The notes beneath the pieces were generated by a model. The model searched no databases. It was not told where the DNA came from and saw nothing but the letters and a program-made list of their open reading frames with translations. Positions 4,020 to 8,584 of a stretch of DNA of 64,000 nucleotides are shown here, piece by piece. The stretch covers positions 1-64,000 of the forward strand of contig JAFGTS010000003.1 of the NCBI GenBank assembly GCA_016933965.1, read 5' to 3'. The first letter of the stretch is position 1. Every line of letters starts with the position of its first letter. Source of the DNA: Deltaproteobacteria bacterium (GTDB lineage Bacteria; Desulfobacterota; Syntrophia; Syntrophales; UBA2210). The position numbers were made by a program, and so were the translations under genes.

Positions 4020-4208
4020 CAGGACTTTTTGTAAAATTGAAAGAGACTATTTGATACAGGAAGCTCCTTGTTCCTGCAAGTCCTTCGAATTGCCGTATTA
4101 CTGAGGTCATCATATCCCCCATCACGCATTATTATGGTACCTGGAGGGTTCCTCTGGTTCCAAGGTTCATGACACAACGACTGCCAATGAAAATGACATT
4201 TTATATCG

Positions 4209-4655: not shown

Positions 4656-4823
4656 TCTTTCTCCTTTCGTTTGAAAACTTAGTGAAATGCATCATGTAGC
4701 AGTATAGCATGTTTGGGATTACAGATTAGAAAATTGATATCCTGGGCATCGTGTTTAAATTATCCTTAACGGATGCCGATACCGGAGAAATTCCGGAAGG
4801 ACATACGTGAAAGGAGAAAAGAT

Positions 4824-5270
4824 ATGCAAAAGAAAATGTTAATAATCACACTCATCACGCTGCTTATCGTCTCTGTTGCTGTTGTTGTGCAGGCAGATCG
4901 GCGCGGATGGAGAGATGTAGATCGATATGATCACTGTGCCTATTACGGTTCAGGTTTTGACTCAGATGACGATTACGGACGCGGATGGGGCAATATGGGT
5001 CCCGGCATGATGTCACAAGGATGGTCACGTGATTACGATATGATGGGACCGGGTTGGCGTTACGGCGACCGTGAAGAATACCTCAAATTTCTGGATGAAA
5101 CGTCGAGTCTCAGGAAAGAACTTCAAGCAAAAAGGTTCGATTACCAAGAGGCATTGAGGAACTCTGATACAAAACCTGAAGATATGGGAAAACTGGAAAA
5201 GGAAATGTACGCTCTGGAGCAGAAAATTAGCAGCAGATCACCCCGGGGATGCTGGTGGCAAAGAGATTGA
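4824..5270 (+). CDS. Secreted heavy-metal-sensor-like (Spy/CpxP/ZraP-type) small protein
   Basis: A 148-residue exported protein. The start at 4824 is chosen because AAGGAG precedes it; an upstream ATG at 4773 would put 17 charged residues before the signal peptide. The signal peptide runs to about residue 25 (ending VVVQA). The middle is rich in Gly, Met, Trp and Asp (NMGPGMMSQGW, DMMGPGW). The C-terminal half is an amphipathic helix with LRKELQAKRFDYQEALR, the arrangement seen in periplasmic metal-sensing and chaperone-like proteins of the ZraP/CnrX kind. It is followed by a clear terminator. Metal binding is inferred from composition only. Confidence 0.72.
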   Translation: MQKKMLIITLITLLIVSVAVVVQADRRGWRDVDRYDHCAYYGSGFDSDDDYGRGWGNMGPGMMSQGWSRDYDMMGPGWRYGDREEYLKFLDETSSLRKELQAKRFDYQEALRNSDTKPEDMGKLEKEMYALEQKISSRSPRGCWWQRD

Positions 5271-5823: not shown

Positions 5824-6350
5824 GCCGTTACCTCCTGCCTCCTGTTGTTCAACATTATGGGCATTAATTATACCAGAACATGAAGCTCTCTGCCGTTTTT
5901 GATTATGATGTGAAATGTTCTCAATGAAGGGGTCAAGTCTACCGTTGACTCATGTCATGTTATATTGCAAGACCTGACCCCACCCTCCGTGTCCGTATAT
6001 TGAATACATCAAATAAATTCGACCCTTTCATTGACAATGGGATTTGATGATGTTACGTAATAATATATGTTTTTTTTATGCTTTCTATCATCAGACACAA
6101 CCGGAGACTGCTGTTTGATATGTTCCGGCAGTGTGCGTGACCCTCTCTTTTCCCCTTTAAAAACCTGCAATGGACGTGACGAAAGAACATGCGGTTCCCT
6201 GTTCGATATGAGCATGAGCGTTTGATGCAGGTATCGACATATATCAGTTGCTGAGCATGACCGTTATCCGAATCGGAAGATCTGATACTATCGGTACACA
6301 TTCGTGACACTCACGTCATGCGGCGGACACGATCAAAAGGAGGGATTATC
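5824..6350. other. Intergenic region upstream of the octahaem cytochrome operon
   Basis: A 527-bp AT-richer stretch between divergent genes. It holds family A repeat copy 2 (5927-5986). The rest has no frame with codon usage or translation signals that I would call a gene. The octahaem gene promoter must lie here, but I could not fix it. Confidence 0.5.
5927..5986 (+). repeat. Dispersed repeat family A, copy 2
   Basis: A 60-bp element with inverted ends GGGGTCAAGTCT and AGACCTGACCCC. The interior (CCGTTGACTCATGTC, then ATGTTATATTGCA) is almost identical to copy 3 at 10208-10264. Confidence 0.85.
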
Positions 6351-7976
6351 ATGGTGGGAAGAACCAGCATCAGAATGTGCTGCTCGCTTGTAAGTTTGCT
6401 GCTGTTTCTCTGGGTTTCGGCATGTATCATCGCTAATGCAAGCATTGCGCAGGCATCACCGGCTGTTCCCGACCGGACGAACTTGTCAACCGCAGACCAC
6501 TCTAAATTCAAGGAGTTACAAAAGGTCTTCGCGTCCGGGCCGGAAGTTACTCAGGCATGCCTTTCGTGCCATACCGAGGCGGCCTCCCAGCTTCGTCACA
6601 CATTTCACTGGACGTGGGTGCCGGATGAACCAGGCGATACATGCCTTGGGAAAGCCCGGTATTTGAATAATCTCTGAGTAACGCCTCAATCCAACTGGTG
6701 CAGGTGTACCAGCTGCCACATAGGTTATGGTTGGAAGGACAAGGCATTCGACTTCAGCGCCCAGGATCGGATCGATTGCCTGGCCTGTCATGACACGACG
6801 GGGACGTACAAAAAGTTTCCCACCGGATGCGGCCATCCGGCGTATGAAACGAAACAGTTCGGCGGCAAAACATTTCAACCTGCCGATCTTTCTTCTGTCG
6901 CCCAGCATGTGGGCAGAACAAGCAGAGCAACATGCGGTGCCTGCCATTTCTATGGCGGTGGAGGAGACGGCATCAAACACGGTGAACTGAACTCTCTGCT
7001 GGTGGCTCCCTCCAAGGCGATCGATGTCCATATGGATGTCGAGGGGCTGGACTATCGATGCACGACATGTCACACCACGGTCGATCACGTGATCCCGGGG
7101 AGATACTATGTCTATCCGGCGCAGAATGCCCACCGGTATGCCGTGCCGCATGATAAGGAAAATCTTATCGGGTGTGAGACATGCCACGGCGCAGCGCCTC
7201 ATCCGGATTCGGCTACGCTGAACGATCACGTCGCCACTGTTTCTTGCCAGGCCTGCCATATTCCGACGATCGGCAGGGGCGGCAAATCAACACTCGTCGG
7301 CTGGGATTGGAGCACGGCGGGAAAATTTGACGAGAACCAGAAATTTATTGTGAAAAAAGATGCGGCCGGCAATGTCAGTTATCATACCATGAAGGGTGAC
7401 CTGGCATGGAACCAGTCGTTCGTTCCGGAATATCGATGGTATACGGGGGGCATGACATATCATTGTGCCGACGACCCCGTTGATGCTGCCGAAGTGCTCT
7501 CGATGAACAGCCCCGAGGGCGCGTATGGTCTCGAGGGAGCTAAGATATTCCCCTTCAAGGTTCTCCGCGGCACGCAGATATATGACCCCGTCACCAGCGT
7601 CCTGATCGTGCCGAAACTGTTCGGTCCGAAGGGAATGGGTGCCTACTGGGCGGATTTTGACTGGAAGAGATCAGCGACGGCGGGCATGGCTGAGGTGGGC
7701 AAGCCCTTCAGCGGTGAGATCGGGTTTGTTGAGACGGAATCCTACTGGCCGGTCACCCACATGGTAGCGCCGAAGGAAGAGTCTCTGCAATGCGACGCCT
7801 GCCACAGCAGGAACGGCCGGCTCGCACAGCTCGGCGGTTTTTATCTTCCCGGTCGGGACGCGTCTTCCGTCCTCGATACCGCCGGCTGGATCCTGGTCAT
7901 ACTGACACTTATCTGCGTGATCGCGCATATCCTGTTGCGTGTATATTTCACTACGATGAAGAGGGAACGATCATGA
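6351..7976 (+). CDS. Octahaem c-type cytochrome, tetrathionate reductase family, with in-frame TGA at codon 109 (probable selenocysteine)
   Basis: One frame from the ATG at 6351 (site AAGGAGG) to 7976, interrupted only by TGA at 6675-6677. Read through, it gives 541 residues: a signal peptide (to about residue 40), eight CXXCH haem sites starting at residues 70, 119, 143, 195, 237, 275, 299 and 481, and a C-terminal membrane helix (about 509-535). The order, together with CTSCHIGYGWKD, CLACHDTTGTYKKFP and CGACHFYGGGGDGIKHG, matches the octahaem tetrathionate reductase (OTR) family, periplasmic enzymes tested on tetrathionate, nitrite and hydroxylamine. The TGA falls in the NNL-x-VTPQSNW segment, where I recall an active-site Cys in relatives. 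A hairpin resembling a bacterial SECIS follows it. Its stop overlaps the start of the cytochrome b gene. The alternative is a nonsense mutation or a sequencing error. Confidence 0.85.
6675..6715 (+). promoter_or_regulatory. Candidate bacterial SECIS hairpin directly after an in-frame TGA
   Basis: TGA is at 6675-6677. Twenty-four bases later an apical loop AGGT (6702-6705) is closed by a seven-pair stem, CTGGTGC (6695-6701) with GTACCAG (6706-6712), containing one G-U pair. After an A-C mismatch, two further pairs extend it (6692-6693 with 6714-6715). The E. coli fdhF SECIS has a similar apical stem (GGTTGC / GCACC) around AGGTCT, 17 bases after its TGA; bacterial SECIS loops are usually placed about 16-37 bases after the codon. 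The hairpin lies within coding sequence that includes the second haem site, so some pairing could be chance. Confidence 0.7.
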
Positions 7977-8584
7977 AAAAAGAAATCCTTTTATATACCG
8001 TGTTCGAACGTCTCTGGCACTGGACCCAGATGCTGCTTATTTTTTTACTGGTCATCACCGGTTTTGAGGTACACGGTTCCTGTCACATCGTCGGGTTCAA
8101 AGATGCCTGCATGTACCATGACTATTTTGGATGGGCACTCGTTACCCTGACGGTGTTCGGGATCTTCTGGCATCTCGTGACCGGTGAATGGAAACAGTAC
8201 ATTCCCAATGTCACTAATATCATGGGTGTTGCTTTTTATTACTTCATCGGCATGTTCAAAGGGCATCCGCATCCCTTTCAGAAGTCCCGTGAACGCAAAC
8301 TGAACCCTCTCCAGCAGGTATCGTATCTTTTTTTCGTGTTCCTGTTGCTGGTGCAGGTCATAAGCGGTGTGCTGTATTATTTCCCCGTATGGAGTAAAAA
8401 GTTTGTCGGGCTGAGCCTGGAGACGATAGCGCTTGTCCATACGGCCGTCGCTTTTCTCATGATCTCGTTCATTATCGTGCATATCTGCATGGCGACAACG
8501 GGACCGACGATCTTCACATATATAAAGTCGATGATAACCGGTCGGGAGGAAATAGAACAATTCGAGGATTATACAACGAAGTGA
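7973..8584 (+). CDS. Cytochrome b (thiosulfate reductase/Ni-hydrogenase b-type) membrane subunit
   Basis: A 203-residue integral membrane protein whose ATG overlaps the stop of the octahaem gene (ATGA), so the two are translationally coupled. The start ERLWHWTQMLLIFLLVITGFEVHG is the usual first helix of di-haem cytochrome b subunits, with His in RLWHW and EVHG. Further His occur in YHDYFGW, FWHLVTGEW, LVHTAVAFL and IVHICMA, and at least four hydrophobic helices can be counted. Its likely role is to pass electrons between the quinone pool and the periplasmic octahaem protein, which is itself anchored by a C-terminal helix. Homologous pairings in other sulfur-oxyanion reductases support this; direction of flow is not determined. 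Confidence 0.88.
   Translation: MKKEILLYTVFERLWHWTQMLLIFLLVITGFEVHGSCHIVGFKDACMYHDYFGWALVTLTVFGIFWHLVTGEWKQYIPNVTNIMGVAFYYFIGMFKGHPHPFQKSRERKLNPLQQVSYLFFVFLLLVQVISGVLYYFPVWSKKFVGLSLETIALVHTAVAFLMISFIIVHICMATTGPTIFTYIKSMITGREEIEQFEDYTTK

Follow-up and report, generated by a model that had tools for sequence, protein, structure and literature searches.

In the octahaem tetrathionate reductase (OTR) from Shewanella oneidensis (1SP3), haem 2 is the catalytic haem, with Lys153 as its axial ligand, and the residues lining the active site at this Lys-ligated haem are reportedly Cys64, Asp150 and Lys153 (Mowat et al. 2004). The Shewanella enzyme reduces nitrite and hydroxylamine (PMC4484225) and has been described as soluble and periplasmic (PMC6449678). 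Another family member, BOGUAY_2386 from an orange Beggiatoaceae, is described as having predicted N- and C-terminal transmembrane helices, with a gene for a thiosulfate reductase cytochrome b following downstream; the recombinant protein reduced tetrathionate at ~93 umol/min/mg and nitrite at ~1.3 umol/min/mg (PMC6449678). Unlike the protein reported here, it was produced in active form in E. coli, and selenocysteine is not mentioned for it (PMC6449678).

Selenols have a lower pKa and greater nucleophilicity than thiols (PMC13188914). Selenocysteine (Sec) has been predicted in another kind of multihaem c-type cytochrome, ExtKL of Geobacter (GSU2937-2936; NF040886) (PMC5877670), which has five haems and belongs to another family. 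The first-pass annotation of the DNA studied here knew of no described selenoprotein in the OTR family, which does not hold: a review of May 2026 lists in a table a 'Tetrathionate reductase family octaheme c-type cytochrome, TIGR04315' (WP_331457571.1) with one Sec, marked 'GenBank annotated', in a row without motif, Sec position, SECIS, distribution or function (PMC13188914). Beyond that table row, no other mention of a Sec-containing TIGR04315 protein was found in the open-access papers searched. As far as could be seen there, the gene described below is a new member of a catalogued but unanalysed selenoprotein family, and the Sec position, the spread and the companion cysteines of the OTR family appear not to have been described before.

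The OTR gene and its product

The window, by which we mean the whole stretch of 64,000 nucleotides that was analysed, carries a gene in which two halves of an eight-haem cytochrome had been noticed on either side of one TGA. Translation of the frame 6351-7976 confirmed that TGA 6675-6677, codon 109, is its single internal stop; the gene's own stop is also TGA (7974-7976). Mapping of the eight CXXCH motifs showed that codon 109 falls after haem motif 1 and before haem motif 2, as had been claimed, and all eight are intact in the read-through protein. The features of the locus are given here.

6338 to 6343, + strand: AGGAGG, Shine-Dalgarno-like, upstream of the ATG at 6351 (sequence)
6351 to 7976, + strand: predicted Sec-containing OTR family cytochrome, 541 residues with Sec
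6558 to 6572, + strand: haem motif 1, CLSCH
6675 to 6677, + strand: TGA, codon 109, predicted to be read as selenocysteine (Sec109), equivalent of Cys64 of 1SP3
6695 to 6712, + strand: putative type A SECIS apical hairpin, CTGGTGC-AGGT-GTACCAG, which shares bases with the codons of haem motif 2
6699 to 6701, + strand: Cys117, an extra cysteine confined to type A Sec forms (alignment)
6705 to 6719, + strand: haem motif 2, CTSCH, the haem taken as catalytic in 1SP3
6828 to 6830, + strand: Cys160, the second extra cysteine, likewise confined to type A Sec forms (alignment)
6966 to 6968, + strand: Asp206, equivalent of Asp150 of 1SP3 (alignment)
6975 to 6977, + strand: Lys209, equivalent of Lys153 of 1SP3 (alignment), invariant in 99/99 OTRs
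7791 to 7805, + strand: haem motif 8, CDACH
7973 to 8584, + strand: cytochrome b561-type membrane subunit, PF01292, its start overlapping the OTR stop (ATGA)

The family assignment made at first reading was correct, as the read-through protein matches TIGR04315 along the entire profile (1-440/440; E=4.5e-172; 573 bits vs a cut-off of 375) and 1SP3 with E=3.6e-113. When residues were counted along the 1SP3 alignment, the TGA fell on Cys64 (NNFC), and Asp150 and Lys153 fell on Asp206 and Lys209. The window protein thus shares full-length homology, eight CXXCH motifs and the conserved Lys153 and Asp150 with the S. oneidensis enzyme, and differs from it by Sec in place of Cys64, two extra cysteines, a C-terminal transmembrane helix and a cytochrome b partner. 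It begins with an N-terminal signal or anchor and ends in a hydrophobic helix (residues 506-540 in the AlphaFold2 model, which has a mean pLDDT of 66 and falls below 50 in the active-site segments 82-111 and 195-274). The ExtKL model NF040886 was absent among the NCBIfam matches of the OTR protein, and Rfam at the gathering threshold gave zero matches across the window. On the sequence evidence set out below, we predict with a probability of about 0.95 that selenocysteine is inserted at codon 109, the position equivalent to Cys64.

Selenocysteine machinery

The genome containing the window, a draft of 55 contigs, was found to hold the Sec machinery for which a search had been advised, namely selA (606.8 bits), selB (365.4 bits), selD (377.6 bits) and a tRNA-Sec with UCA anticodon (56.9 bits) whose 3' end is incomplete, being cut by the contig end. 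The selD gene has an in-frame TGA of its own, in GAG-U-ACKI, at a site that presumably corresponds to the catalytic Cys of E. coli SelD. A gene in the same locus as this selD (L138, G000:C2:14091-15020) resembles a YedE-type transporter. Across the samples described below, selA was found in 33 of the 35 genomes with a Sec-form OTR, and it is present in nearly all sampled Desulfobacterota, whether their OTR has Sec or Cys; the machinery therefore does not separate Sec from Cys genomes.

TGA and cysteine codons among relatives

Searches covering 155 genomes from the order and 395 from the phylum turned up many further loci with exactly one internal TGA. At the column equivalent to Cys64, 99 aligned full-length OTRs have TGA in 36 cases, Cys in 63 and nothing else, which bears out both the proposal that relatives have an active-site Cys at residue 109 and the expectation of homologues with TGA at the same codon. 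The 36 TGA genes come from 35 separate genomes in the Desulfobacterota samples searched. A scan of genome contigs, on which the distribution outside Desulfobacterota is based, gave 23 loci, 21 with Cys and two with TGA at the same codon; the latter are Syntrophaceae MAGs whose proteins are 52-53% identical to the window protein. No internal TAA or TAG was seen in family matches above the cut-off, among those listed for the phylum sample.

The nearest Sec relative of the window protein is 55% identical, and for want of a closer one substitution rates were compared in other Sec members. Downstream of the TGA, dN between closely related Sec genes is far below dS (for example, 0.022 vs 0.214 and 0.082 vs 1.27), as expected of a translated protein, and this part of the protein is under strong purifying selection in those members.

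Gene callers that halt at TGA would split such genes, and Sec-OTRs are therefore probably under-counted. Two OTR-like loci below the family cut-off, L115 (TGA near 4136) and L116, have a common TGA in ...SY-U-APPNTV... and are possibly a further Sec group. Their site (HSYU and ETYU) may match the same Cys (NSYC in L135 and L137), a longer insertion preceding the next haem, and their downstream hairpin fits the bSECIS rules weakly. A distant OTR-like match (G197:C15:17216-18403) has one in-frame TAG.

The SECIS hairpin

Rules for bacterial SECIS elements (bSECIS) ask for a loop of 3-9 nt, a stem of 4-16 bp, a G in the first two loop bases, a loop 16-37 nt from the UGA and an MFE <= -7.5 (PMC13188914). 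The hairpin pointed out at first reading lies at 6695-6712, starting 17 nt past the TGA, and fits this model in all respects, with loop AGGT 24 nt after the UGA, a stem of 7 bp and -14.1 kcal/mol for the folded 51-nt stretch. In all 36 Sec genes, the rules for stem, loop length, loop G and the 16-37 nt spacing are satisfied. Thirty-three of them have a type A hairpin, CTGGTGC-AGGT (or AGTT)-GCACCAG, with the loop 24 nt after the UGA; the other three (L074, L075, L101) have type B, GCAACGA-GGC-TCGTTGC, with the loop at 20 nt. The two designs are unrelated.

Tested against synonymous codons, the window hairpin gives p=0.11, and many other genes p 0.1-0.4. Since the codons of haem motif 2 also spell out its hairpin, the single gene provides no significance; the significance comes from conservation. 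Among type A genes with Arg at +9, the codon is AGG in 30/30, vs 13.8% AGG over the remainder of these genes, whereas Cys forms with Trp at +7 always have CGN for the Arg there. The ACC codon of the type A hairpin is invariant, and in L113 an outer stem pair is changed on both sides, from C-G to T-A. In the hairpin, then, codon choice is under more constraint than the protein alone requires. Two Cys forms of the same order, L048 and L050, can form hairpins near-identical to the type B SECIS (GCAACGA-GCC-TCGTTGC in L048), which are either remnants from a Sec since lost or fortuitous points of departure for acquiring Sec.

Two other readings of the TGA can be weighed against these results. One base change turns TGC or TGT into TGA, and in a draft genome the codon might be a nonsense mutation or assembly error, and the gene dead or mis-sequenced. 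To this we give almost no credence, since the same codon is TGA in genes of 35 separate genomes, with TAA and TAG missing among the matches listed, and since purifying selection acts on the downstream frame of other Sec members and the window gene retains its eight haem motifs. The undamaged haem sites had already been held against an old nonsense mutation, and for the Sec-OTR family as a whole this explanation is already refuted. Equally improbable, in our view, is that the hairpin and Cys117 are mere by-products of encoding W-C-R-C-T-S-C-H, with the TGA read by suppression or as a reassigned UGA. Synonymous shuffles of that peptide do often give an equally long stem, as the p values of 0.1-0.4 reflect; against this stand the AGG bias, the invariant ACC and the entirely different hairpin of the three type B genes, which lack the peptide altogether. 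Reassignment of UGA was rejected, as the OTR gene itself terminates in TGA and the genome carries Sec genes. Selenocysteine insertion at codon 109 is the reading adopted in what follows.

Companion cysteines and repeated gains or losses of Sec

Cys117 and Cys160 occur together in 33/33 type A Sec proteins, in 0/3 type B and in 0/63 Cys forms. The RNA could dictate Cys117, whose codon lies inside the hairpin stem. It cannot dictate Cys160, which is encoded well away from the hairpin; the joint presence of the two thus points to a reason at the level of the protein. To our knowledge, a Sec/Cys/Cys triad by a Lys-ligated catalytic haem is known in no described multihaem enzyme.

On a quick tree, from an alignment in which the Sec/Cys column was kept, a single clade was rejected both for all Sec forms (p-AU 1e-49) and for the set with Sec/Cys/Cys (p-AU 6.6e-6). 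Sec appears to have been gained, or lost from a Sec ancestor, at least four times in the tree. We suggest, giving the idea an even chance, that Sec-OTRs are repeatedly evolved enzymes with a Sec/Cys/Cys triad by the Lys-ligated haem, whose SECIS lies inside the codons of that haem and partly dictates the residues between Sec and haem. The repeated switches between Cys and Sec and the two unrelated SECIS designs offer a natural experiment on the reasons for retaining selenium.

Proposed mechanism and substrate

In the mechanism that we propose, SelB and tRNA-Sec would decode TGA 6675-6677 as Sec, with the hairpin at 6695-6712 as their guide. This would yield a periplasmic, membrane-anchored octahaem OTR in which Sec109, next to the Lys-ligated catalytic haem 2, stands in for the active-site Cys64. 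Electrons would pass from quinol through cytochrome b to the OTR haems. In tetrathionate or a similar polythionate, the selenolate would attack the S-S bond at the centre of the molecule, and haem 2 would then reduce the resulting Se-thiosulfonate intermediate. A role of Cys117 and Cys160 may be to resolve the selenium or to protect it. The overlap of the OTR and cytochrome b genes suggests a membrane-anchored, quinol-driven enzyme of this kind, and a quinol:polythionate reductase is likewise suggested by BOGUAY_2386, which has the anchored layout and reduces tetrathionate.

By this analogy, a polythionate could be the substrate of the window enzyme, a proposal about as apt to be right as wrong. 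The Sec enzyme might instead act physiologically on nitrite, hydroxylamine, sulfite or another oxyanion, which we regard as possible but somewhat doubtful. The activities of the Shewanella OTR (PMC4484225) and some nitrite reductase activity of BOGUAY_2386 (PMC6449678) speak for it; against it, in the assays reported for BOGUAY_2386, the rate with tetrathionate was ~70 times that with nitrite (PMC6449678), and a selenolate nucleophile is, by general chemistry, suited to S-S cleavage. Sec-OTRs would bring selenium and a catalytic c-haem within reach of each other in widespread anaerobes (35 genomes in the Desulfobacterota samples searched), and they make the role of Cys64 in OTR a testable question.

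Gene neighbourhoods

A cytochrome b gene lies directly downstream of the OTR gene at 32/36 Sec loci, and these are all 32 whose protein has a C-terminal hydrophobic helix. The remaining four Sec proteins (L111-L114) have neither the helix nor the cytochrome b. Among Cys-form OTRs, cytochrome b is found downstream at 30/43 loci with enough downstream sequence. Also in the window, 4773-5270 encodes a small secreted Met/Gly-rich protein (MGPGMMSQGW...) with no Pfam match that is reminiscent of ZraP/CpxP-type periplasmic proteins. The genes for the soluble Sec-OTRs L111, L112 and L114 (genomes G333, G473 and G508) adjoin one for an oligopeptide-type substrate-binding-like protein, and a sigma-54 activator-like gene stands beside L111-L113 (G333, G473 and G285). 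Genomes G333 and G473 have a Cys-type OTR as well.
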